DNA of 64,000 nt. It comes from Mugil cephalus. Taxonomy: Eukaryota; Chordata; Actinopteri; Mugiliformes; Mugilidae. The stretch covers positions 19,748,697-19,812,696 of the forward strand of contig NC_061774.1 of the NCBI RefSeq assembly GCF_022458985.1, read 5' to 3'. The notes under the pieces are model-generated. The model did not search any database, was not told the DNA's origin, and was given only the letters and a program-made list of their open reading frames with translations. Of this stretch, positions 16,154-63,300 are shown in pieces (the first letter of the stretch is position 1; each line of letters opens with the position of its first letter). The position numbers and the translations under genes were made by a program.

Positions 16154-16255
16154 GAGAAACGAGCTCGGACCCAGACCCACGCTGACAGGCCCAGTCGGTG
16201 CATGTGTGTGCCTTCCGGTGCGTCTTTTTAGACTGCTGCGAGGCCTCAGGTCAGG
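16154..16255 (+). other. ednrbb: 5' leader part of ednrbb exon 2, with a short upstream ORF
   Basis: Acceptor TTTCCCTGCAG precedes 16154. The leader holds one upstream ATG (16202) opening a 9-codon ORF that stops at 16231, 24 bases before the receptor ATG. A short uORF this close could lower receptor translation. Confidence 0.55.
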
Positions 16256-19200
16256 ATGAGGGCCATTGCACTGCTGCTGTTCTTGATGGCCGTGGAGGTC
16301 GGGGCGTCCAGGGTCGTCCGCGATTCCCAGGGCGTGCCGGAGGCTTCTGATCCGTCCAAGAGCAACGCGTCGGCTGCGTTGCCGCCTCCGCGGCCGCCTC
16401 CGCAGCCTGTGCGGCCGGGGATCCCCCCGCCCATGTGCTTAAAGCCCACGGAGATCAAGCGCGCCTTCAAGTATGTGAACACCATCATATCCTGCTTGAT
16501 CTTCGTGGTGGGGATCATCGGCAACTCGACGCTGCTCAGGATCATATATAAGAACAAGTGCATGAGGAACGGACCCAATGTCCTGATCGGCAGCCTGGCG
16601 CTGGGAGACCTGCTCTATATCATCATTGCCATCCCCATCAATGTGTACAAGGTAACCACACTGTCTCCCCGTTAGTCTGCAGTGTTTCTTCTGTTCGGCC
16701 AGAATCTTTTGGCGCATCTGAACATTAAATCAAATCTCTTCAAATTAAAATGTCCAAGTTGGAAGGTTTGCAACTGCTATAATATTCACCATTTAAGGCA
16801 TTTTGTACAATATGTAAAATCATCACTTCAAATTAATTCATTTTATTAGGCACGGCTGTGTCTAATTTAGACAGGCTTTAATCTGGGGCCATTTCCCTGC
16901 ACGTTAACAGTTGTGGGAGCGTAGTTTGCGACACCCTCCTTGGAACATCCCGTGGATGGCTGTGGTTTCTTTATGAGGTTATTGCTGTGGTTCGCCTCCA
17001 CGTTCGGTCGCTTTCGTGCGGTTTTGTCAATTTCCTTTTTCAGAAACGTCTGTGCAGGTTTTTCCACCTGGACTATAAAGGATGATTAGAAAAAAAACAA
17101 ACAAACGGGTAACCGCAGATGCAAGCCAGCAGCTAGGCAGAGCCGCGCTGGGATTTTAGACTTTTGTTTACTGGCCCTGTGTGAAGCGAAACTATTCAGT
17201 GGGTTGACGTAATAAGTGTAGCCAGGCAGTAATTGTTTAACTGCAACTGTTATGCCAGTCCAAAACCCAAACAGAAAACATATGAACCTTTTTTTTTTTT
17301 TTTAATTCTACAGATCTGATAGGACTGACTTTGATTGAATGAAGCTGGGATGTAGTCTTGATTTATCCAGCTAATCTGTGATAGAGTCGCCCTTAACTGT
17401 GTTTTCTTTGCGTTAAAGTCCTGCATTTCCCTATTATGGATGGTTGTGGTAGCTCAATCTGTAATGTTAAGAGCATCAAGATGTATTTTAAGGCGATAAA
17501 GAGACCTGATTCGGAACATTTGAAAGTTTGAAGGTCACAATAGTTCTGATTGTTTTAAGATACCAGAGACGATACTGTACGTTTGTCTGAGCAGTTGAAA
17601 ATGATACCTCCTGATAATCAAATTTAGCCTCATTTGTTATTGCACACCACGCTGTCCTGACCCTGGAAGGAACCTGATTTTTATGAGAGAAGAACTTTAG
17701 CAGTGGGGTGGAACACTGTGTTGTAGGTTTTGGCATCAGCAGCTGCATTAATGATGAAAGACAAAAGGAAGAGCGGACCTCGAAATGAACCTTGAAGAGG
17801 TCCGCGTGTGTTTACACAGGTGACACTTATTAAGTTCCTGTCATCACAAAAGCCCCTTTCTTTCCATCTCCCCTCCATTTATTTTTCTCTGCAGCTAATA
17901 GCCGAGGACTGGCCGTTCGGCGTGTACATTTGTAAGCTGATGCCGTTCATCCAGAAAGCCTCAGTGGGTATCACTGTCCTCAGCTTGTGTGCCCTCAGCA
18001 TTGACCGGTGAGCGTGCTGCAACTCCTCAGACACACACACACACTCACTCATTAATTAATTGCCCCTCGTTTTTTCTGATTCTGACACAGGCAAAGATGA
18101 GCACTGAATGCATGCGTCTGTATCCCGTTTAGGTACCATGCCGTGACGTCGTGGAGCAGGGTGAAGGGAATGGGGATCCCTCTCTGGAAAGCAGTGGAGG
18201 TGACACTGATCTGGATGGTCGCCGTGCTGCTGGCCGTCCCTGAGGCGCTGGCATTCGACATGCTGGAAATGCCGTACAGGGGCAACAAGCTGCGCGTCTG
18301 CCTACTGCACCCCGAACAGACCACCAACTTCATGAAGGTAGGCACGATTAGACATGTGCACCAGTACAAAGTATGGAAATAGAAAGTAAAAATTCCTGTC
18401 GCTTGTTAAATCAGAGCTAACTTTAGTTACATTATTTATCATCATTTAAAAATAAATCATTTTCTAAATAAATCAGTTTATCTTATCGGGATCCTCGGTT
18501 TGTACACAAAGTTTTAAACTTCACAGTAAGTGGTGACTGTATGTGTCAAACAAATGCAGCGGTAGAAACCTTAAGTATACGATGGAATTACTCTAACCTC
18601 AGTGTATACTGTATGTCATATGGTGCTTAAGTGAATTAACTGTTTAGTGGTTTGTGATTATTTTTTTAATAAATGCAATGCTATAACTATGTTTCATGCT
18701 CGTAACGTTAAAGCACACAGTCCATCAGGTGTCATGTGGTGTGTACAGGTCAATATTAGGATAACAATTGTGCGTTTAAATAAACCAGTTGTCTATTTTA
18801 TCAAATCAACTGAATGCGAAGTTTGTTTTTCAGGTAACATTTTAATGCGAGATCTAATTTGCACACGCAAATTGAAAAACAAGTGTCTAAAAGCCGCCAG
18901 CAGCCGCTCATGTTTGCGGGTCTGCAGCAGCGCCTTGAGCTGCATGCTAACTACAGCGCTGCAGGGTCTTAGTTTAGCACGTTAGCTTGACGATATTTGA
19001 CCGCTTTAAGTTGGCGCGAGAAGCTAACATGCTAAAAAGGCTTAATCCTTCATGGGGCAAGGAACCATGGTATGGTATCATCGACACACATTTTAAATTT
19101 CGTCCCCGCGCCTCCCAGTGAGGTTTAGAAGCATGTGGTCAGAGAAGATAAAGGAAACACTCTCAGTTGAAATCAGGGTCTAACGTGGTCCTCAAGGACA

Positions 19201-45252: not shown

Positions 45253-45277
45253 ACCTTCTGCCTGGTCACCAAATTTG

Positions 45278-45337
45278 ATGGATTATAGTGCTGTTGACCG
45301 GAGTCAAGGCTACTCAGTACTTACTCTATCCGAGTAG
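45278..45337 (+). CDS. Upstream ORF (19 codons) in the mtus1 large exon
   Basis: ATG at 45278 encodes MDYSAVDRSQGYSVLTLSE and stops 16 bases before the chosen mtus1 start, in a different frame. It lies downstream of the acceptor, so it would be in every long-isoform mRNA. Its role as a translation brake is inference. Confidence 0.4.
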   Translation: MDYSAVDRSQGYSVLTLSE

Positions 45338-45353
45338 GTGCAATCCCATCAGA

Positions 45354-48300
45354 ATGTCTAATAGAACATTTATGATGTCCACCGACCAAGTTGAGGGGAC
45401 AGCTCCTCAGCCTCACAGAGCCCTGCAGCTGGTTATATCCCCCGAGAGTCACTACCTGTCAATGTCACCTGACTCTGAAAGCAGTATTTCCAACCCGAGT
45501 GATGGAGAAGCCAGAAGCTCCACTGACGTAAACACACTGGAGTGCTGCATCAATGAATGTTCCCCCTTAAATAACCTCTGCAACAGCACCTTATCACAGG
45601 GGGCGAGCACAAACATGAATCAGACTTTCATTGCCACACCTGTAAATGGGAGCATGAATTTTTGGAATGAAAACTTGAACCTGATGAGCGGCGAAGATCA
45701 TGGATCAGAGAAGTGCCAGACCTTTAGTAAACTCACAGAAGAAGAAGGGAGTGCAGGGATCTCTCCAGACTCTGCTGGCAGGGACAGCCAACTTAGTTCT
45801 TATGAGAATTCTTGTAGAGGATCCACTGAGAATGATTGCTGCTTCCTGAGCTCTGGGGAAATGGTAATGAGGAACAACAGTTTCAGTCTTGAGGACCAGT
45901 CTGTCTTGGTAGTCTCTTCCCTGGATGAATCGTCCCTCTCTCCAGCTGCAGGTCGTCCAGCATTGCCTACTGACTCTAACCTGCTGTCATCAGCTCTTCC
46001 AATTGTTCGTGAAAAATCAACAGAGAGGGCTACTGAGGAGAACACAGGCAATCCTTGTCTTGGCATGACTTTCACTCAGCCAGACAACTGGGAGCTCCTC
46101 ACTGAGGAAAATGATAAAGCAACACCCAGCTCTCTTGTACCTCTGCCAAGTGAGAATGAAGGGAGTCTTTTGATGACTTTTATCTACGAAACATCTACAG
46201 AATCCAGAAAAGAGACAGAGTTTCCCAGTGCTGAAGGAGATCCCGTGCCTTATTTTTTGGGGACAATTACACCAGAACAAGGCAAGAACTTTGCAACCCT
46301 AAACCCTAACCCTGTGCAAGAGAGTGATAAAGATATTCATACTTCCACTCCGGTACAAAACACTGGGAACCAGATACCCGGCCCCCCTTCCTTTTCTCAG
46401 TCTCCTTGTACTGGAAATGCAAGCAGCCCTAAACTCCACCCTGTTAAAGAGCGTCAGTCTCCTGTTACTCCTAAACAGCGTCTGGCAAACAGAGTGCCAC
46501 CTTCTGGTAGCAAAGTAAAGAAAATTGAAATTAAGAAATTTCCAAAGCCGGACTTCAGTAGTGTGAAATCTAAAATCATCACTCGAGCTACACATCAAAT
46601 AGCAGTGCGGAAACCAACACAAGTTAATGTCAACAATAAACATAATGGCGTGCAAAGAGCAGCCACTGTCAGGGTTAGTCCTGTCAAAACGAGGAGTAGG
46701 AATGCTAGTGGGCATAACATTGTGAATGGACAGGACAAGATCAGAGCATCCCCACCTGAAAAATACCCAGTAGCAACTGACTGTGCCTCAGCAATCCAAT
46801 GCAGTAATGCAAACTCTGAAACAAAGCAGGTGGTCTCAAACCAAGAATCAGCACAGCAATCTGGCAGCGAGACAACCTGCTTCTCATCCTTGGATAAAAC
46901 ACCTGTTAGAAGTGGTCAAAAAGATCGCAAACCAACTGCAAAGAAGGGTGTGTCAGAGAAAATTGAGGTCAGGTCAGACTCGGCTGTAGGTCAGGACAGG
47001 CCTCATCTCTGCAAGACTCGACCTCGCTGCTCATCTGAGAGTTCACCATCTAGGCCACCCAAGGAGAAAAGATCTCTCACATTCTCAGCCAGTTTTACTG
47101 TTCCCAGAGCTGACTGCCACCGTAGCCACACTAAACCAGGGACCCTGAACAGCTCTTCCCGGTATAAACGGCCTGTCCAGTCCGAGGAAGCAAATGGATC
47201 TACTGAAAACTCCTCAAGAGAGGTTAAGAAAATCAGCCTGGTGGTGAGTAGATGCATGTCCAACAACTGGAAATAAATAAATATGCTGAACCCCTGCTAA
47301 TATCATATTTGGTTGTAAATTTTCTTTAAACCACAACAAAGCTGAAAAACAGGACACAGAAATATTTGTTTGGAGCTGTGAGGGATATTTGGTGGAAAAA
47401 TGAAGTGTATAGGTTGTAATTTAGTGAGTGACACCATGCTCTCTTTTCAGGCAGAATTGGATAACTGGAAGACTAGACTTCGAGGGAGACCATCCCCTAG
47501 GCGAGGTGCCAGTCCCAGACCAGCCACTCTGTCAGACAGGCAGAGACTGGGAACCCTGGGAAGGGATGAATCCAGGACCTCCAAAGCTGTGGAGCCAACT
47601 CAATCCAAACAGAGGAGCATTACAGGTTTGACACATCTTTGTTTGACTAAATGCATGTCATGTTTTTGAGTGATATTGGGCCAAATTGTTATGTTGTGAA
47701 ACTGTAGAAGACTTCAGAAAAGATGCTGTGTTGACGAAGGCAATTGTTGACCAATAAATGTCATAGGTTCGTAGGTAAGTCCTACAAGCTACTTGGACAG
47801 TTCAAATCCGACTGATTTCCTTTATCTCACGTGTTGTGTAAAAGAAAAAAAAAATAGTGTGTCAGTGTTTAATCCTGTGTGGAGAAGCTCAATTTGATTG
47901 TTCGCCTTAGACTTCCTTATAGGTAATTGTAAACTATAATTATGTAGATCTTTGTAACATAGTTTGTTCAATCAGAAAACAACATTTAGCACTATCTCTG
48001 CTCGGCCCGCTGTCTTGACCTCATCCGTGTTTAACAGGAACAGTGTTGGATACAGATATCACCTCCGGTCTATGACCAGAGTTTTGGCATGAGCAGACAA
48101 CTCTCTCTGTGTTAGTGGTCTACATAGTAAGACGAGTCCTGGGAAGAGGTGGACTCTTCCTCTCTTGGGAGGCCATCTGTACGAATGGGAAAGGCAGGGG
48201 AAGGAAAGGGAGGTTTTAGCTAACCAGTGGCTTTAAAGTGAGAAAACAATGTTTTGAAAGAAGTAGTAACATTGTTATGCTCCAGCTACACCAGGCACTC

Positions 48301-51300
48301 CACACACAGATACGTTATTTAGCGTGAACTTGTTCTTTGTGGTTGATGGCATTCGAAATGTTTGCTGTTGTAAGCAAGATTGGTGAGTTTTAACCAACTT
48401 CTGTTTCAGTGACAGTTGTTTTTCGTCGTGTGAAATGTTGTTTAAATTATATTTCTTCTTCTCAGACATACCTAAAACAGAATTATTCCACTACTATGTG
48501 AACTTGTCTGTAATAAAGAGCTCTATGTCCATTTCAGGTATTCAGAGAGGAGAGCCAACACATGGCGCGGCCACAGCTAAGCCCCAGTGGTGTGGATCTC
48601 GACCTACTCAGACCACTGCTCGTCCTCCTCTTATGGGCCCTCCCCCTACCCCTGCTTCTAGACTACCACGGAAGACCCTGGGGCCAGCTAGGAGCCTAAA
48701 TGAAGGCAGTGTTCACAGCGAACTGAGTCACAGCACAGGGAATACTCAAGGTGAGGCTTATAGAAGATGTTTACATGTTCTCAAGGTGTATGACCTGTTA
48801 ATGTAGTTATATTAAGTTTTAAAATCACTTATATGCCAGCTGTCAAACATAACCCTTGGTTTTTAACGACACATCTGGACCAGTAAGGGAGGGGCTGCTG
48901 TTTAAATGACTGACCCACTTCAGGCCTGGGCTTGGATGTAAATCTCCCTCCGTGCAAATCTTTCTCTGCGTTTAATAATACCTTCACATCTGCCAAAATG
49001 TAGCAGAAAAACAACATTTATTAGATTTCTCCATTTTAAACAGCTCTAATAGAAATTCAGAAAAAATTAAATTAGCTAAAATGCAGGTCAGGTGCAGAAA
49101 ATCATCTGTTTTGTTGCTGATTGTCAATCGAGAACATACTAATACTATTTGTACGAAGGAGCCCTGTTGTGCTTAAAATCTTCAGCAGCATGCAGGTCTG
49201 TGATTGGCTGAGAGGATCTATTTTCCAAACTGGGGGACCCCCCCATCTCTTTCTGTTGTCACGGCAACGGGTTACATTCCACTCTAGTTCACACACAGTG
49301 TTGCCTGAAGGAGAGACGGCAGACGTGCACTATAACTGATGCCGTCTGAGGTGGATTAAAAGAGCGTTTCATTCATTTTTAACTGAAAACCGATGGCTGG
49401 TTACACTGGACTTCGAAGCTGCACTTGGACTGAATTTCCTGCGTATATTTTCAACAACACCTCTTTATTCGCACAAGGCAGTGCAGCATCCAACTGTGAT
49501 GTCACTCTCTTGACATGCCTGCTCATTGGATCCTATCGCTTCTGTATCATCCCTTTGTTAGCTGCATTAAATGGAAAAGATAAAAAGCTTTGGAGAAGTG
49601 AGTGAGACGGTCAGTTTACTCATAGCTGGGGTTTCCATGGTGAAGTACTTACTTTTGAACGTTTTCAGTTATACGTTGTTTATAAATAAGCTTCTGTTAG
49701 ATTATTTGCTGCATTCTTACTCTGATAATTGTTATAATAGTCAGATTAACATTTCTTTCATTGTTCTTTTACATGAATGTTTATATAAATATATTTATTT
49801 AATTTGGTGCAAGCAAGTTTTCACATATTGTTCCATAAATGATCCGTTTACATCCTCTTTTGCTTGACTTTCTTACCATCACTTGTGATAGAATACTATG
49901 TGAGCTCAATGGTAATGACACTAGAACTGTTGCTAGTTGCTGTATTGTGGTAATGAATGGTGAATCTCAAGTGTTTTCACAAACCAGAATTTAATGGCAT
50001 AACTTGCACTATGTAATCAGAACGTTTCTATCTGTCCACCAGTTTTTGGAGGAGCTGCACATAAACCAACCCCAGTGAAATCTGTTGTACTGAAAGCAAA
50101 GTTAATCTCAACCCCTGGGAAAAACGCTGGACCAGGTGAGACACACACACACATCCTCAAACAGTACAGACCTCATATGTCCATTATTTTTATATTTCTT
50201 TTTTTGATTAAGTAAGCAAGTTTCCCTTCATGAACTCCCATTGATCTCTCAATAAATAAGGCATTGATTGATTTATCTTTCATCAAATCCTCACATTATG
50301 ATAAGGTAATGTCCTACACGACCCAAAGTGTAAACTCTCAGAAGTCACAACTCTGGTTCCTTTGTGTTGTGTGGTGACAGTCCTTGATGAGTCATCCTTG
50401 ACCTTGATTGAATTAAATGACTGAAATCTTTGTTGGCCAGTAGAACCTTGATCAAACCCCACGGTTTGATTTAAAAGCTGTCTGTGTGTCACTGCAGTTA
50501 GTCGCCAGCATTTCTGTTTCATTATGGGTCAGACTAACTCCAGCCTCTTTTCTCACCTGGATTTTCTGCTCGTAACAGCATTGACCACAGCTTGCAGGCC
50601 TGCTGCGTCCTCAGACAAAGGATCATCAGCTTCTACATTCAGCCCTCTGAAAAGGAGCGCTTCAGCAAGATTTGTCCGAAGTTCAAGTGGACCTGGTAAG
50701 AGTTTCCTCTTTTCAGTTTGTTTTTTTGACATGGATCTTATTGATTTTATTATCTGTTTTGCCAGACTTAAACTAAACATGGGTGAATGCTTGTGGGGCG
50801 GCACAAAAATGTGTTGTTATTGTGCTTCGTGTAGTACTGTAGTATTCAGGGAAATTATAGCCTATGAGGAAATAGATTTTACATTTCTCTAAAATGTGAA
50901 TCTTTGTCAGGCGTGAATTAGACTTTCCATATTTTACCAAAAAGAATCATGTTTGCTTCAACCTGCTTTAGACGACTGTTACATATCATCAGGTGAACAC
51001 AACACGTATTGCGCTCAGAAATCATTGCAATTCTTGGTTAGTTGAGAAAATAATCAGTTTGAGTCATTGTTGCTCTCTGGGATTGACTGATGAATATTTT
51101 CTGTCTTTTATGGCGTCATTACAGTCTGGTCAGTTTTACTGCTTTTTATTTAATGTTAGATTAAATATGGTTCCCAGTCACGGTTAAGGACACCACAAGC
51201 AGTATCTAGGATGGAGGGTGAATGAGAGAAAGGGTAGAGGGCTAGATTAAATCCCCATTGGCTGCAGTTATGCTCTTTGCTCCTCCCACTCCTTTTTTTT

Positions 51301-54300
51301 TTTTTTTTTTTTTTTATTCTCCAACCCTCCCCCACCCCCTCTCCTCTCTGCCTAGCATCCTGGCTCTGCTACAGCACCGCCATCATCAAGCTTAGAGATG
51401 CTGCTTGCTTTGCTCTGCTGTGGGAGATCCGCGTGTTTGGTGAATAGATGAATCCTGGCTTTACCAAGAGGATTAAGAGATTTTTACTTTTTTTTTTGTC
51501 CCTCTCTCTATCATGTCTCTTAGACTGTGCCACAGATCACTGGCCAGCCTTTAACCTTTTCTGCATATTCTGGTCTTCGCAACTGAGAATTAGATTTTAG
51601 AGCTGGGAGACCTGCCATGCCGAACTGGGTGCCCTCACTTTTTTCAAGGCTGCCTCAGTGGAATAACCGTTACTACTGCTTTTTATTGTTTTATTTAATT
51701 ATTTTCTGCCAGTCCTCATCAGTTCTGATGTCACCTGAGGCATGACACACTGAGGTGCACCGTGGCTTGCAGTTTGTAGCCAGCGTCGAGCGTTTGCTTT
51801 TGGATTTTTAAATCGTTGTTTGCTGAAAACACTGGCTTGTTGCTGAGATGTTGTGGTCCCCGAAACTCTCCCTATCAAACATCCACGTGCGTCTAACAGC
51901 CAAGGGTTTACTCCGAAACATTCAGCTGCTGTCAGGATGCAGGAAGAACACAGTTGTTTTCCACGCAGGTCTGTCTTTTATTTCAGTGTTAATATATTGC
52001 TGTTGACATTGTTGTAACATTGTAGTGGTGTTTGTGTTTCTGTGCTGTAACGTTTAAGCCGAGACTATCAGCGTTGTCCTTTTGAGGTGGTTCTGTGCTG
52101 TTGGCTCTTTCTGAAATCTATTTTTAGTATAGCTATTTACTAGTCGGCAAACAGGAGGTTCAGCTTTCATTTTACCTACCTTGGTCATTAAAACAGGAGT
52201 CTGGGCAGAAGCATTTTAGATTATGATATGTATCCATGAACAACGTAAAACCACCATAATTGTCATATCAACATTTCAGAGTAGCTTCCATTATTTTTGA
52301 GGCTACCGTTTATATGATAAAGTGTCAAAATACACTTTATCTTGGTCTGTGGGACATTCAGTGCTCCTGTTTCACTCAAATGGACCAAGGTTATTTTGGT
52401 TCTTGGTCTCTAGGTTGAACCATGGGAACCCAGCTGTGATTGGTGGACAGTATTATGGGAAAATAGTAGCTTTCTGCAGTTCCCACATTACGTAAAAAAA
52501 TAAATAATAATAAAAAAAGACCAAATATGGTAACGTTTGCCAAGGGTTAAATGTTTAAATTGGCAATGTTTTAACAAAAAATGCAGAATCTTGAATATTG
52601 TCCAAATCCGAGATCTTTTTATCATGACTAACAAGTATTTGTTTATTTATTCATTTTAAGTGCTCCCAGTCTCGTTCTGTTGTGAAATATTGTAAGTTAT
52701 TCTGTCAACCAAGTACTAAAACAAGGGCTTGATTGTGAACGGTCCTGTCACTTGTGCTGTGATGCGATATCTCCTTAGAGTAACAGAACACAATGCAGTG
52801 GAGTCTCTAAATCACTCACTATCTCGTGTTGAGTGTTTGACTTTATGTGGTGCAAAATTTTTTTTTTTTTTTTTGAGCCTTGAAAAATGTCTGAAATGAA
52901 ATTAGGGCAACATATTTCATAATCACAAATCAACAAATGGCCGTGGATTGTTTGTTGTTACGGAGCTGTCGTCAGTGAAAGAGATGATGTGCTTCTGTAA
53001 AATCTGATTTAATTTGGAAAGTGCAGATTTCACGAGATTAAGCTAAATGCTAACTCCCAGACCATATGTTTGCTAATTTGTGGATATTTATTTTCTGTTT
53101 TCAGTATCGTTTAGAATCACACTGAAGGAATTAACCGCACAGAATTTTCTTTCATAGCCTGAAAATCAGACTGAATTGACATTTAATTTTATTCAGAATT
53201 TGAGTGTCTGAATCATCTGCGATGTCTCAGATATTTTAGGTACTGTCTCTGCAGAATAATTTTGAGCGACTTAAATATGTAGACGTATGCATTTTTCTCA
53301 ATATTGCTGTTTCTTGATGTGCACATCAGACCATATATCTTTTTATGGACATGTTCAAACAGTTTTTTCTATAATTTGCTACAAGTAAACTGACCTATAA
53401 ATAAGAAATGCAGTACAGGGGAATAAAATAGTAGATGCTTTATTATGTCACGCAATGTGATATTTAGTTTTGGAAAGACCACAATATGATGAAGGAAAAA
53501 TGTAAGTAGTCAGCTCACTGAGTCTGTTGCTGAGCTTATTGTTTTTTGTTTTGTTATTTTTTTCCCCTGTATAAAGGCATGTTTGTGATGCATATTGGTG
53601 TTCAGATGGTGTGTCTTTGTGCACAACCAGCAGAGGGCGTAATAAAACCTTGTTGAGTTAGTTCACCATCATCAAAATGATTGAAAACAAAGCTCCACAA
53701 CTCAACAATGTCTTTCCATCTGTGTCAATAAGGATCTTTAATATCTCTATCTTCCTGTTTTAAAAAAAAAAAAAAATCTTATTTATTTTACGTGTGAAAT
53801 ATTATCCTACAGTACCATCAAAGGTTTGGACACACCTATACATTGAAGCTTTGCCTCTGTCTTTTATCTATTATCTGGACTCTAAATGTGTTCAGAAAAT
53901 GCTAAGAGTGTGTAAAGCTGTTACCAACACAGATGGTTGTCGCATATTGTGGTTTAACACATTTTCTAACGCTTTTTAACTGTTTACTTTATAACTCGAT
54001 GGGTCATTCCAGAAAACACTTGAATAAGTGTGTGACTCAGACTTTTGGCTGGTACTGTAAGTAATCTATGTAGCCAAAATCAAATTAGTAAATTTAATAT
54101 GAGAGGTCGTTAAGATTTGAAGTTGTTTTTCTGATTTTGTACCATCTGGGTGACACACTGAAGCCTATTATGAGCAAAAATTTTTGTGCAACAGTCAACG
54201 TTTAGTGTCCTGACTACATAATGGCTGAAATCTTTCTGTCCTGCACATGTGTCTTTTGTTGACATTGATCCAGTAGCAGTACAGAATGAATACTTTGTTT

Positions 54301-57300
54301 GTCTTAAAGGCTGTGCCTGTCTCTTACGCTGTAACAGTTTACTTTGGCTCTGAATGACAGAAACTGCCTTTAAGGTAAACTGCATATCCGCATACAGAGC
54401 TGTGAGAGCTTGAGTCAGCCTGTGGTGGGACTGGCTTTTATTATCCCGATTTCTCAAGTGCACAATTTGTGCTTTATGTTTCATAGGTTTGTCTTTTGAA
54501 TCTGTTGCCTTCACGATCATGTGTGCATAATGGTGTGTTTGGTCGAACAAGGCAGTACTGTTTGTTATCTGCAGTATTATTTTTCCAGGCCAGTGTTCAG
54601 AGATTTGGCAGAAGTCTACAGAAGATGGGGACGATGATTTTTGTTGTTGGCCAAATCAGAGGGTGATAAAGGGAAAAATAAAGAGTATATACACGTCATT
54701 AGTTTGCTTGGAAATCCGTTATATTATTATGACATATTGCGTAGCTACATGCTGCTGTTATTCTAGGATGTTATGATGTTCTCGGATGTTGCTCTGTTTA
54801 GTACCTCTAAATTTAACTTGACTATGGTCCAGCTTTTGTGCTTCATAAAGGACAAGTCAATAACGAATGAGGAGACTATATATATCTGCGTAGTATAACA
54901 ATGGATTAATAGAATAATTCACTCAGCTTTGAGGAAGCATGTTTATTTTTTTTGCTTAATAATCTTTATTTATGTAACAGCTACCATCTGAAACAACATA
55001 CAAGGCTGAATGTTGATCCCCACTGGTGGCTGGTAGTACAATATATTCCCTCATTAACGTTGGTATTCCTGTTATGTCACAGGATATTGTTGCTGCTGTG
55101 TTACATAACATGCACTACACCGTCTTCTCAAAGTAAATATGCATACAGACACTTTTCAATTGTCGGTCACATGTCCCTTTTTTTCCCACTCACCCCTGCT
55201 GTGAAAGTGAGAGTGTGTTCTCGCGTCCAAGCTTTGTGGCAGATTAAATAATGTGTTGGTCATTAGTGGGATTTATGGCGGCTGTTGGATATCTGTGATA
55301 TATTTACGAAGCTTGTGTAAGTCAAAACTACAATAGCATGGCCTTGCTAAAATAAGCTGTCCTTGGTGGCCAGTGTCTGCAGGGTGCATTAGGATATGGA
55401 TCCATTTCTGTGGCTGGGTTGTCAGAGGAACAGCACCGGGGATCATCACACCCGCTGACGGGACAGAAATTAGGGCTTTGACTCTGGGGCTTGTGAACCT
55501 GACAGGGGTGTATGAGTTGGGTGGTGCTGCCATCAGGCCACTAGCGGTGGTCATGGAAGGGAGTATGTTGATGATCAATGTTGTCACACTCAACTCATGT
55601 TCTTTCACAGTGGACAAGAACAAATCCAAGCCCAGCTCCCGTCAGCAGCCCCCTCAACAGCCGGCATCCCACCTAAACCAGAGCACTGGACCTCAGGATG
55701 GGATACCAACGAGTTTCACAGAGTGTGGGAAAAAATACATCCAGCAGCTCAAAGGACTCCTGACGGGCAGTAACCGTGGATTTGAGGCAGTTGCCATCGT
55801 CTTGCAGAAAACTTTGACAGAGGTAAGAAAATTTTACTTTTTCAATCTGAATTTATTTATTTTTAATTTTACATTTCAACAACCTGGACTTTGTTTACTT
55901 ATTTTTGTGTATGGTAATAGTGAGTAAGAGATGGATCTTCTATTGATCTGTGTTTACACAAGAGTCAAGTTATCTTTATATTATCACCTTTGGATTCTAT
56001 ATGTTAAATGAAGGAAAACTGATTTCCTGTTTACTGCAATAGGATTGGGAATGAATGCAAGTGTATGAGAGGCTCCACAAAAAGACTTACTCTGCGTGTG
56101 ACGTGTATGTGAAGGAGAGATTTGTCTTTGTTTGACAATCAGTCAATTATTCCTGTGGTGTTGAGTCAAAATATGAGCTGCCTCCTAAAAGAGGCACCGT
56201 GATCTCCTGTTAAAACAAAGGTCTGGTGAAAACCTGGGTTTATTCTAAATTCTAAATTATCAAAAAAATATATATATTTGAGTTGACTTTTCATGGATTT
56301 GCATGTTTCTTTTTGTGGGAAAGACGAGCATTGTCTCCAGTGTTTTTTTAAGTCTTTAAGCCTGTTTGTTTTTTTGACTTCCACTACATGCCTCAAGATC
56401 TTGTTCTTTCCAGAGTGTTTTACAAATAGACTTAAACTAAACGGCTGTCCTCCAGCCAACCCCAGCCATCATACTCCCTCATTTAATTACCGTTGAATTG
56501 AAACGGTTATGTGGTGCTTGGACTCAAGTGTCATTACATCAGAATGCATACCGCCTAAATATGTTTGAGTTATAAAAGTAAATCCAGTTTTTCTATTTTA
56601 ATCTGTGTCTCCTGGTGAAGCTGTGTGGGGGAAAAATGACACCCATTTGTTGTGTATTAATACTTGAAAGCATCCAAATATTAAATTATATTTACAGTAC
56701 TGTTGAATTGTTACATGCTACTGGGTTTTCACCATTTTATCTTATACTGCAGGTATATTAGTTCCACTAGGCAGAACAAAAAATACTACTGTAGCGACAC
56801 AGTTGAATCTTCCCCCAAGGCTTCAGTGCTCGACACATTTGGAGGTGAGGGATCATATACTTGTTCCTGCTGGTTGGTCAAGGCACCTGTACAGATGGTA
56901 GACAGCTGATTTCTGGTTTACATTTCAAAGTACAGTACATCTTTGTAGGAAATGTCCTCCACAGTTGTTCCACAAGCTGTTGTCGTACCTCTGAAAGCAC
57001 GACTACTAAGACCTTTGTTCAGAAAATTAAACCACTGCTTCTCTCAGCTGTGATGCAGAAACTCACCCATGTGTTTTATTGCCTCTGACCTAAATTTCAG
57101 CAACTCCCTTTACCCCGGAGTTTGACACCACACTGATCTTTTACGGCTGCGTTCCGGATAGTTGCAGTTGTGATTGAGTTCATATCAGTCCACTATAAAC
57201 CATAAGAAGCTTAAGTCTCGGGAACACACTTTGTCCTTTTAACCTTATTTCAGGTTTCAGGTCAGTAGTAATTTGTTTTTGATGCATAGTGTATTGAGAG

Positions 57301-60300
57301 ATGCCTCAGCTCATGCATTCCAACAGTGTGAAGCCATTAGTGAAGGTTCTTTTATTTTGATATGTTTGGATGAAATCTCCCAAAGATGATTTCATAACAA
57401 AACATCAGTGTAACAATTTGAGTGATATGTTAAATATGTAAATATATTAATATTTAGTATTGGAGCCATTTTCTTTAATGACTTCAACCCTCGAGCTGAA
57501 TGGATGAGTTTCTTAGACCCTGATGACCCCACCTTATACTGCCAAAGAGGATTTTATACCCACCTAGAAAGGTATCTCTTTGGGTTTATAGACTGTCTGT
57601 GCTCTGAGACCGTGATAGATGACCTATTTTTGATAAGCATTTTTTATTTTATTTTTTTGGCCATCCATCTCATTTTATTGCTCTTTAAATAGTGTGGTCA
57701 CTTTCCAATAAATTCCACCCAGAATTTTGGACCTCGCAGTATGTGGTCATACAAAACGAATATGAAGCAGGATGTTTTTTTTAAAGGCTTTTCTCGTTCC
57801 AGACCATGTAATGTGACAGCTGGTATCTAAGGCTCAGTGCGTGATCTTTAGTCACTTGTGTTTGACTCACGTCCCTCTGTTTTGGCGCCAGGGTTGTGAA
57901 ACTGAATGCACTAAGAAATATTAAAAACATGCTTGTTCCTCTCTGGCAGAAAAGCAGCTGTTAAGACCTCCTCCCACTGACTCAACTTTAACTATTGCGT
58001 GTCTTGCTTATTTCACCCTTATGTTGTACGTGATAATAGTAGATTAAAATATTAAATGGTTGATCTGAGTATCAGGTGTATTAATGGGGCGAGTTGTTAT
58101 GCACTCTGTGTGGAATGGAATCTGGTGGCCACTCATCATACCAAGAATAGGAGGTTGGACCATACCATCATAGTGTGAGAATGCCCCAGCTGTTGACTTG
58201 ATATGGTTATGACCAGCAGCCAAATACTAGGCAGGGACTGTTTCTTATCATGTGTTTGGATGGCGTTTGTAAGCACTGGACCTACTTTGACATACCTCCT
58301 CTCAAAGAGAGAGAAGATGCTGTAAAATGAGTTTCTTTTCAGTAAAGGAATGCAAGTGCACACATTCCATATTCTCTCTAAAAAAAAAAAATACCCCATC
58401 ATGTTGCTTTGCTCTGCTTGTTTTCTGAAATACGCTGTATTTCCAGGATACTGTAACTTGATCTGCTGCAATTAGTCACTGATCTTAGTTCACCATCAAG
58501 GGTTATTCTACACCTCATCATCGTTGTACGCACCGGAGACATTTGTAGGACCTTAGGGGTGGGAAACTGATATCAAATGAAAATGGTTAAAGCGTGCACA
58601 GCCAAACAGGGCAGTCTGTGTTCAAGTATTTTTAGAATAAAAGTATTCTGACTATGAAATGGTTCTTTTCTTCATTTTAGGGTTGGGTGGAGGAAAAATT
58701 TGGTGACTACTTTTAAAAATTAAAAAAAAGTGAGATTACTAAATATTTTTTTTTAATCAAAACTTAGAGCAGACTTAATGATGAAGATCCTTTACGAAAA
58801 TCAGCCTTCTTTCAAAGGAAAAAAAATATGATTGTCTTCAAAAACAAAACATGACAAGTAAAGCATGTCGGTATTTAACTGGAGCAAGTGAAACTGTAGA
58901 AATCAAAACAGTTTGCCATACGGCCAGTTTTCAGTTACGATGTAGTGTGCTGTTTGCAGTGCAGTAGTCAGAGGTTATTTAAATTTTTATCGTTTCTATT
59001 TTTTTAATAGTATCCATTTACCATATATTGATTATAAAAAGACTTGCTTACACAGAAGCTGGAAATGTGATCGGTCACTGCATTATATCATCCTCTAATG
59101 GAGAGACTGTACCCACGCACCCCGTAGCTGTACAGCAGACTGTAAGGTAATGGTGCAGAGGGGCTGAAGGGATGATTTAATGTAGGTTTGGATGAGCAGT
59201 GGGGGGATGGTGGTAATGAAGCCTCTTCATGTATCCCCTGGGTAGGTCACTGCACAGCACAAGTCCTTCTCCATCAGCCTGATGTCAAGCAGCTCTGTGC
59301 AATTTATCTGTTTGCTCCACTCTGGCTGCCTTTAGTGCTGTCTTAAAGTGACCTCACCTCCCCGATGAGGAGGCTGTTCTCATGCACACTGTAGCCTGCC
59401 CCTTTTGTTTTTTTTTTTTAGGTGGATTACGGTAATGCACTCTGCAGTCACTCACCACAGCCAGTGAAGCGGCTTTTTCAGTCCTGCCTTAGATGTAGCC
59501 AGAGCAGTCTGGGAGGAAGTGCGTGCGGAGGTGGTGTGTCCACCTGGACCACTGTTTGTCCTGGAGCACTGGGTCTCCATTGCTACTGGGGGGACTCCGA
59601 CAACCCAAGCCTCAGACTGAGGCTGGACCATGGGCTGTTCTGGCAGCAAATCATGCCTTAGTGCTCCTTGTGCTGCAGAGAGGGTAACTGGCTTCTACAT
59701 TGTTCTATTCTGCAGTGAGGAATAGATGCAGGTCTGGGGAGCAGCAGGACAGGGTGGAATACTATTTGCTAATGTAAACTGATCAGTGAGGTGATGCCTG
59801 GCTTGTCTTACTTGTCTGTTTTTCCTCACGCGCAAAATTGAATTATGCAGGCTGTGTGATCTACGGTGTGTAGTGTCCAGCTGTTGTCATTTGGCATGAT
59901 AAGAGAGAGGTAGCTCACAGATTAACTGTTTTCTGGATCATCTCTGCGTCAATGTGAGGTCTAGCTGGAGCACTGCAGCTAGAACGCAGCCCTCTCCACT
60001 GCAAAACTGACTCAGAAAGGGAGAAATAAGGGAAACAGACTGGCACAAGGCTTGTGTGAAACTGAAAACATGAGTCAGTTCCCCTTTAATCCGTTTCGCT
60101 GATTATTATCTTCTGTTTAGTTCAAACACAATAGCTTCGTAGAAAAGCAGGATTCATCAAACGGTTATGTGACATCGTGGCATTGCATTCATTGCTCATT
60201 TGTGATCTTGACTGTGACGATTTCAGCTTGTTGCTGTGTTAAAATATTGCAGTGCTGTTCGGGGCATGTGCATGACTGTTTACTTTTTCCTTCTGCAGCG

Positions 60301-63300
60301 CGATGAAGCCACGAAGCAGTGCAGAGAGCTGTCCCAGGAGCTGGTCAATCTTAGAGGAGAGCTGGGTAAGTCCGGTCACCTTGCTCTGACTCTAGCAGTG
60401 ATTACAGTGCTTATCACTAAAGTACACACTGCTTTTACATGCTTTACCATTTAGCACCCTTTTTTTTTTTATCCTTTAATTTAATCTTGTGTTGCATGTT
60501 TGTTTAGAAAGTGTGCCTTAAAGTAGCTGCAGGGTTACCTTCTCTTAGTTAATAGAAGTGGTATCAAATTGTTTCATGAATTAAATATCATGTCTGTAGT
60601 CTGGGGGGGATGTCTTACCTTCGCCTATATAGATATTATCTACATAGAGATGGTTAGATCGTTCCTATTCCACTTGCTAATTGCCACGACACTGAAAATG
60701 CGATACCCTTTTGACAAGTTGGTGTGTGCGTGTTTAGCAGTGCTGAGTGGGACAGTGTCAGTCCATTCCCCAGGGAGTGGCAATCTGACCCCTGACCCCA
60801 CACACAGGAGGAGCTTCCACTGGTGGAATTCCCACACCACCTGAGGCCTTGTTAAAGCTCGTGGACAATGACCCATGTTTTATGTTCAGCCTAAGTGCTG
60901 TCACACCAAATAGCCTTGCATGTGCACGCTCGTTCAAACATGCTCTCACAACAGCTTTCAGTAGCAGTAGTGCCGCGGCTCCTCCCCTCCCTCACAGCCT
61001 CGGGACTTCCACATGACTGCTCTTATACGCTGAGCGCTGTTGTGTTTGACTTGACTTCAGGGAGGCTGTGAGATCCACACTGACCTCAGATGGACATTTT
61101 GAATCATGTAGGAAAACAGATTTGACATTATTATTACTTATTTCCTCCTCTTTGGCCATGCTTGCTTCCCCGGTGATTTCCCTCCTCACACAGAAAGAAA
61201 ATAGTACGTCTCTCTTCAGAATTATAGCACAGCCACACCGTTTGTCATACGTTTATTAAATAAAGTGGGATACCAGCTGGGGATGTGATGCTTCCAAACA
61301 TCACCTCGCATTGAGCCAAAATGCAGCTAAGTTTAGATTACGCGAACCCTCCTTTTTCCGAACACTGAGGTGTATGTGTGAGGGGATTTGGAGTCGAAAG
61401 TCACATGACTGCAGAAGCCGGGGGTTCATTTTCAGGCTGTACATACCAAAGCCTGATAGATAGTCCCTATGTTGGCTTGGTGCCTGTTCCTGAATTGGCT
61501 GCCATTATTCCGCTCTGGGTAAGGTGAATCCTCATGCAAAGGCAATGCAGTGTAGTCCTTCATTGGCCTTTTACTTCTTTTTTGTTAATTTGAAGAGAGT
61601 TGTAATTAGAAAACAGATCATGTACCTCGAGTGTTCCACGAGAGCACTGAACGAGAAGAGCCATAACGGAGCAACAGCTGGATTCAGGATTATTTTACAT
61701 CCACTGCTGAGGTTAAACATAGATTCACATTCTAAATAGTTGTGGTTTATTGTCATGCTGTGTATTTGAGACCAAACCTTGGGAGGAAAATCTGGTTAAC
61801 ATTGCAGCAACCTTTCGAGTTCTGCACAGTGTGGTTTTTTTTTTTTTACCCTCTACACTATCACAGTTACTTTGGCCCTATTCAAACAATAGATATGAGC
61901 AGTGTTTGTGCGCAGCCACTAGAACTGGGGACAGGTTGTGGAGCTGTCACCCACTTCTGGCCAGATACAAACACTTTGCAGTGGAGGCAGTTGAGAAATA
62001 GTGAGCGGGATTGACAAAACAAAGGCACGAATTGCAGAAACAAAAAATGACACAATATCGGCTCGGGAAGAAATCTGTTGCATATGTTGCCATTTTCAAT
62101 TTCAGTTTATTATGAAAGAACTCAGTTGTTTCTGTATCTTACTTGCCCTATAAATAACTGCAGTGTAGTTGGCCTCAGCAGTCAAGTGCAAAAGGCACCT
62201 CCCCTTTAAAGTCAGTTTTTCCATTCCTTTTTCTGAGAGCGTTTGGTGTCACACATTTAGGGAGGATTTAAATGGAGGTTCCTTAGTGGACGTATCAGGT
62301 TTCTTATGCAAGCATTTAATAATAAAGTTTTTCCCCTGTCCTTGTTTAACGAATATTACAGTCCGTGCAGCTGTCACACTTTCACCATAGTAAATACATT
62401 ACTGTCTGCTGGTTTTATTTCCAGTCTGCTCGGTCCACTCATCCGAGCGCCTGGAGAAGGAGAAGGAAGAGCTGCGTGTGTCTCTGGAGGACGCACTGCA
62501 GAGGCTGCAGGACCAGCACCAGAATGACCTGTCTGAGCTGGAGCAGAGGCTGCAGGCTTTTTATCAGGCCGAGTGGGACAAGGTTCACCTCACCTACCAG
62601 GAGGAAGCTGACAAATGCAAGACTCTCATGCAACAGCAGGTTTGTCCCCATTTTAATTCCTTTGTATTTAATGTAATTTAATTTATTTGAGAGTTGTTCA
62701 GGGAGATTCACAGCATCTGCTTTTATATTTATTACATTTATTTAAAGGACAGTCTTGAAGGATAACATGTACACGCCCTTAGATGTTATTTAATCTAATG
62801 TTGCAATGTTTTGTAATAAAGAATAACTTTATCGTGTGCTCTGTTGATTAGATGGTTGAGCTTAAAGCCAGTCATGAAGCCATGAAGCTGGAACTAGAAA
62901 ACAGCCATGAAGAACAGCTGCAGTGTGTCAAGCAGCAGTATGAGATGTCACTGGAAGGTGAGCGAACTGTACTTTGCAGCTGAAGTTGATGATTTCCTAG
63001 TTTAATAATGCCCGTTCCATTGTAGTTTTTTGCATCATGGGTATGAAATTGTGAATAGCTTTAACCTTTTGAGGTGCAATTTTCAGAAATGTTTTAATGC
63101 CACATAACATGTAAACGTTTCAGAGCTCAGGAACGTTCACAATGAGGAGCTGCAGTGTTTGGGCAAAACCTTAAAAGATGCTGAAGATGCTCTATCCGTA
63201 AGCTCCTTTTTCTAACTAATGTCCACCAACAACATGTCATGAGAATACCAATCTGATGAGCTACTGTGTTAGACTTTACTCAGTGGCTTTGTTTTTGCTG

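Follow-up and report, generated by a model that had tools for sequence, protein, structure and literature searches.

In addition to the long, microtubule-binding form ATIP3, the human MTUS1 gene gives rise to the isoforms ATIP1 and ATIP4. These two isoforms and their promoters, with exons 5 and 8 serving as first exons, have been described in human (PMC2706840) and counterpart isoforms are reported from rodents (PMC8147298), viz. ATBP50 for ATIP1 and ATBP60 for ATIP4 in mouse. Human ATIP1 (transcript variant 5) is a protein of 436 amino acids (aa) (PMC3994487) encoded by 10 coding exons (PMC3584557), and the region that is shared by the MTUS1 proteins is given as 395 residues in one source (PMC3566609) and as 396 in another (PMC8147298). 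Human ATIP4 (transcript variant 4; 517 aa) starts at exon 5 under promoter P2 and is brain-specific; its N-terminus of 36 residues is followed by 24 hydrophobic residues with charges on either side, and the inner part comprises 456 residues (PMC3566609). A literature search on MTUS1 or ATIP in fish and zebrafish, which left most subscription journals uncovered, yielded no title on fish ATIP isoforms among the matches listed. Gene-prediction databases are expected to list such fish isoforms already. We describe here a stretch of 64,000 nucleotides (nt) from the fish Mugil cephalus (referred to below as the window, with positions counted from its first letter), which corresponds to C5:19748697-19812696 of a 635-Mb genome of 24 contigs. 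The right third of the window is occupied on the + strand by mtus1, in which a first exon of the ATIP1 type (A1) has very likely been retained and one of the ATIP4 type (A4) probably so.

The coding part of A1 lies within an intron of 4,915 bp (50696-55610), and the long-form exons that border this intron have phase-1 ends. It extends from an ATG at 51848 to a donor at 51968 (CAG/GTCTGT), and its 121 nt comprise 40 codons plus one base. When this donor is joined to the acceptor TTCTTTCACAG/TGGACAAG at 55611, at the start of the first shared coiled-coil exon, the codon at the junction reads V and the isoform-specific part comes to 41 residues. Based upon a donor scoring matrix, the donor has a score of 5.67, which is exceeded by none of the other GTs in the open frame (14 in all) and ranks 9th among the 318 GTs in 51230-55600; by the same matrix twelve other donors scored between 2.7 and 10.9. 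The complete fish ATIP1 is predicted to contain 444 aa, as compared with 436 in human, and to be encoded by 10 coding exons (A1 and the nine shared exons, C1-C9). An earlier note on this DNA had reported a 40-codon exon inside a 4.9-kb intron and its in-phase splicing to the first exon of the coiled coil, and both statements are borne out by these boundaries. The exon start that it placed at 51230, however, is a left boundary for which we have found no support of any kind in the sequence. We consider it very likely that in fish mtus1 the coding sequence of the short ATIP1 isoform begins with the exon at 51848-51968.

The conservation of the isoform-specific peptide, which had likewise been claimed, was also recovered. 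In an alignment with a provisional sequence of human ATIP1, 29 of the 40 residues of A1 are identical and 34 are positive, with a BLOSUM62 score of 145; the next-best of the 127,762 six-frame 40-mers of the window scored 26, and shuffling the fish peptide 100,000 times gave a maximum of 40. The identity to the provisional human protein, determined separately for each fish exon, was 29/40 for A1, 27/71 for C1, 17/22 for C2, 29/72 for C3, 17/35 for C4, 6/25 for C5, 14/32 for C6, 23/39 for C7, 16/33 for C8, and 56/75 for C9. Thus A1 is among the three best-conserved exons, together with C2 and C9, which argues for selection on the ATIP1 head itself, the identity in the other seven shared exons being 0.24-0.59. 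The position of the exon also agrees with the human arrangement, where exon 8 with its promoter P3 stands directly before the shared exons (PMC2706840). Two core strings of the A1 peptide had no match in a text search of the literature, and none of the best matches listed for eight published human and mouse primers in the window fell on the A1 exon. When the A1 peptide and 93 residues of the shared tail were searched against collections of genome contigs and viral contigs, no relative was confirmed among the 589 and 63 pattern matches, respectively. Pfam gave no match to the ATIP1-type protein and PDB nothing at E 0.01 for the shared tail; four PDB matches to the ATIP1 head plus a portion of the tail were dismissed as being at the level of chance.

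The exons of the gene were traced via splice sites and reading frame, with boundaries of the AG/GT type and a single open frame through to the stop. The features are as follows:

45253..47243, + strand: L1, the large ATIP3 exon, with the ATG taken at 45354 (splice and frame trace)
47451..47625, + strand: L2, ATIP3 exon (splice and frame trace)
48538..48750, + strand: L3, ATIP3 exon (splice and frame trace)
49203..49392, + strand: putative promoter and 5' untranslated region (5' UTR) of A4, possible functional counterpart of human P2
49393..49597, + strand: A4, probable ATIP4-type first coding exon, phase 1 (human layout per PMC3566609)
50043..50135, + strand: L4, common to ATIP3 and the putative ATIP4, equivalent of human exon 6 (splice and frame trace)
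50579..50695, + strand: L5, common to ATIP3 and the putative ATIP4, equivalent of human exon 7 (splice and frame trace)
51230..51847, + strand: putative 5' UTR and promoter of A1, presumed counterpart of human P3 (PMC2706840)
51848..51968, + strand: A1, very likely ATIP1-type first coding exon, 40 residues plus one base, phase 1
55611..55822, + strand: C1, first shared coiled-coil exon, equivalent of human exon 9, phase-1 acceptor
60299-60365, 62425-62639 and 62852-62957, + strand: shared exons C2, C3 and C4
63124-63197 and 63314-63409, + strand: shared exons C5 and C6
64822-65849 in continued numbering, beyond the end of the window: shared exons C7-C9

A number of observations weigh against the assignment of A1 to ATIP1. 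Its donor departs from the consensus in having a C at +3; seven ATGs are found between 51230 and the A1 ATG, which would burden a long 5' UTR; and the observed/expected ratio of CpG (CpG o/e) in 300-bp windows starting at 51251-51551 stands at the 8th-58th percentile of the whole window. The provisional human sequence, moreover, was set down after the fish peptide was known and is unverified for its first 40 residues, and it was the sole vertebrate sequence with which A1 was compared. This raises the question of whether the similarity arose by chance or is an artefact of the human sequence used: in the earlier note as in our own work the human letters were set down when the fish peptide was already known, and for two of the five published shared-region primers (both of them among the three from mouse) the encoded peptide is absent from the provisional human protein. 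That protein, however, divides into 41 + 395 = 436 residues in agreement with the printed lengths, the remaining three primers (both human ones and one from mouse) do encode peptides that it contains, and its C-terminus, which was set down before the sequence of the fish tail was known, proved to be 75% identical to the latter over 76 columns. The 41 specific residues, the 10 coding exons, and the position of the exon also match the published description independently of the provisional letters. We regard a spurious match as the least credible of the alternatives. It may also be asked if A1 is an ancient relic that is still readable but is not transcribed in this fish. The low CpG values and the imperfect donor would be in keeping with this, whereas a 40-codon open frame that remains identical at 29 of 40 positions, when seven of the nine shared exons reach less, implies continued constraint, and both the phase and usable splice signals have been kept; this explanation is very improbable.

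The remaining alternative, that A1 is an internal cassette or a poison exon of the long transcript rather than a first exon, appears just as improbable as a relic. An AG at 51846-51847 directly abuts the A1 ATG, the exon is intronic with respect to the long form, and an out-of-frame use as a poison exon is compatible with the test of frame. However, none of the 62 AG acceptors in the region from 50800 to the A1 ATG yields an in-frame exon free of stops, and acceptors farther upstream are also barred because of the in-frame TGA at 51824; inclusion from 51848 (121 nt) would shift the frame. Additionally, the conservation begins at the Met, as in the mammalian N-terminus (based upon the provisional human letters). 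Since no in-frame cassette is possible, A1, if it is protein-coding, should be a first exon, and a transcription start internal to the gene is thereby implied.

The ATIP1-type first exon would thus be served by an internal promoter, which most likely lies within a few hundred bases upstream of A1 and is equivalent to human P3. Human P3 drives reporters in four of four cell lines, is marked by 13 tags from cap analysis of gene expression (CAGE), and has its conservation reported for all of 11 orthologous loci, the species of which are unnamed in the available text (PMC2706840). The activity of the human promoter is known from reporter constructs (PMC2706840), that of the fish being putative. 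The segment 51230-51847 contains one ATTGG (CCAAT-type) at 51257, and the CpG o/e rises to the 71st percentile at 51651; the strings tried for a TATA box had no match in it, and nothing in its sequence fixes the position of the transcription start. As hints of a promoter, these sequence features are weak and in part contrary. A scan of the window for bacterial promoters was set aside as irrelevant to a fish gene. We infer that A1 is both transcribed and functional in fish.

The second exon of interest, A4, is found in the intron that separates L3 from L4. From an ATG at 49393, 68 codons and one further base lead to a donor GAA/GTGAGT at 49597 in phase 1, which fits L4. The encoded protein may be divided into 36 residues, a transmembrane-like stretch of about 24 hydrophobic residues and then GKDKKLWR, although the exact boundary between the 36 and the 24 is of our choosing; by the Kyte-Doolittle scale the highest-scoring windows of 24 and 21 residues start at residues 36 (1.76) and 39 (2.01), respectively. 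The exons A4-L4-L5-A1-C1, all in phase 1, stand in the same order as human exons 5-6-7-8-9 (an order implied by PMC2706840), and the predicted fish product has 542 aa as compared with 517 for human ATIP4. Its intron contains no other candidate of 40 aa or more, and of the 15 ATG-donor pairs on the + strand of the window (at least 60 aa, phase-1 GTRAG) A4 is the only one with such a hydrophobic stretch. When the intron was subjected to 1,000 dinucleotide shuffles, a candidate of at least 60 aa arose in 13 of them, one of these had a hydrophobic stretch, and in none was it correctly placed. An in-frame use of A4 as a cassette was found for 0 of the 28 acceptors tested. Four Pfam matches to the ATIP4-type protein were all below the curated cut-offs and are not considered further.

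Upstream of A4, an ATTGG is present at 49203. It is followed 52 bp later by GTTGTCACGGCAAC (49255-49268; 138 bp before the A4 ATG), an RFX X-box-like palindrome. It occurs a single time in the window, where 0.09 occurrences are expected, and at least once in 9 of 100 shuffles, the pattern having been written after the site was seen. Some points argue against the identification of A4 as an ATIP4 exon. The hydrophobic stretch of the fish contains an internal Arg, the resemblance to human ATIP4 is one of published layout, and the CpG o/e upstream of the exon reaches only the 63rd-67th percentile. Human P2, for its part, was weak in the lines tested (1.01-1.52) and has one CAGE tag; it is reported to be conserved in 9 of 11 loci (PMC2706840). 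Overall, 49393-49597 is probably an ATIP4-type first exon of the same gene, and this exon, which went unmentioned in the earlier note and agrees in its position, phase, and layout with the published description of human ATIP4, is what is new here. It is also the less expected part of this work, because according to a 2021 review ATIP4 was never characterised molecularly or functionally (PMC8147298). Taken together, the alternative starts of this gene look as old as the bony vertebrates, which extends what is known from mammals in a solid but modest way.

The earlier note had also proposed that the lack of acidic residues in the A1 peptide fits a mitochondrial role of the short forms. This suggestion is weak. 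The 40 residues of the A1 head indeed contain no D or E, for which P is about 0.007 under the composition of the gene itself. However, 44 of the 1,047 40-residue windows of the long form (1,086 residues of which lie within the window) are equally free of D and E, 37 of them with at least six K or R, and the helical moment of the A1 head is ordinary (P = 0.32). A reading of the head as a mitochondrial presequence was rejected, neither its composition nor its helical moment being distinctive. The mammalian reports on the location of ATIP1 themselves conflict: it has been placed at the outer mitochondrial membrane (PMC11077360), data from cardiomyocytes are 'in sharp contrast' to mitochondria (PMC12071853), the Golgi is given elsewhere (PMC8147298), and a location at the cell membrane has also been reported. 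Mammalian ATIP1 has the shared tail that binds the AT2 receptor, without the ATIP3-specific head, and is described as a scaffold of the AT2-receptor/ERK pathway. The step from sequence to function for fish ATIP1 would rest upon this mammalian work.

In the model that we propose, transcription would start at the internal promoter, and removal of the first intron would join 51968 to 55611. The product would carry, ahead of the shared coiled-coil tail, an N-terminal peptide of 41 residues that is basic and contains no acidic residue. As the microtubule-binding ATIP3 head is left out, this product would be a coiled-coil adaptor that is addressed to another part of the cell. The ATIP4 first exon has very probably been kept too, and the mammalian three-start layout is therefore probably older than the divergence of ray-finned fish from tetrapods. 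The broader proposal, that a three-start MTUS1 (ATIP3, membrane-spanning ATIP4, and ATIP1) was present in the ancestor of bony vertebrates, with selection on the head peptides and with ATIP4 under RFX/CCAAT control through the X-box at 49255, is one that we favour moderately. If it is true, a single coiled-coil adaptor has been sent to three cellular addresses, by choice of promoter alone, from a time before the fish and tetrapod lineages separated. What the heads of ATIP1 and ATIP4 do is a matter not yet settled, and the presence of both first exons in a fish suggests that the heads themselves matter. Isoform-specific deletions of first exons or promoters in zebrafish could separate the roles of ATIP1, ATIP3, and ATIP4, e.g. 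in heart and brain, with the shared tail left intact.

Searches of the 635-Mb genome, which score the best candidates only and hence give copy counts that are lower bounds, found one strong match for the A1 peptide (E 2.3e-20; the next, at E 9.5, contained a stop) and one for A4 (E 4.3e-42; next 0.45). The shared tail identified mtus1 on C5 and two related, mtus2-like genes on C15 and C9. The last exon of these genes is identical to the provisional human MTUS1 tail at 75% (76 columns) for the gene on C5, 44% (72) for that on C15, and 51% (68) for that on C9. By this comparison, in which the provisional human letters are partly supported by primers and which contained no MTUS2 reference, the gene in the window is identified as mtus1, its tail being nearer to MTUS1 than are those of the other two genes. 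A fourth match of the tail, at C5:28898115, is weak (E 0.005, one stop) and looks like noise. No second mtus1 was seen in these searches, the only clear one being that on C5; a second copy, as set against the two mtus2-like genes, appears to be missing or undetected. Although mtus1 and the mtus2-like genes have a related C-terminal coiled coil, exons of the ATIP1 and ATIP4 types were found only in mtus1. None was found in the 50 kb (C15) and 30 kb (C9) examined around the mtus2-like genes (best E 0.09 and 0.03, the former for an A1-like exon), and there was no good match elsewhere in the genome.

With regard to the gene as a whole, the long form (ATIP3) is predicted to contain 1,233 aa when started from the ATG at 45354, and by our count mtus1 has 16 coding exons in this fish. 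For MTUS1, the corresponding counts are 17 in human and 15 in rodents in one source (PMC8147298), and 18 in human in another (PMC3584557). L2 is 175 nt in length and its skipping breaks the frame; unlike the optional exon that distinguishes human ATIP3a and ATIP3b, it is thus not an in-phase optional exon. To the left of mtus1, on the same strand, an open frame at 16232-16675 carries a piece of an endothelin receptor, for which the closest PDB chains are those of type B (E 2.6e-35), followed by type A (E 5.6e-31).

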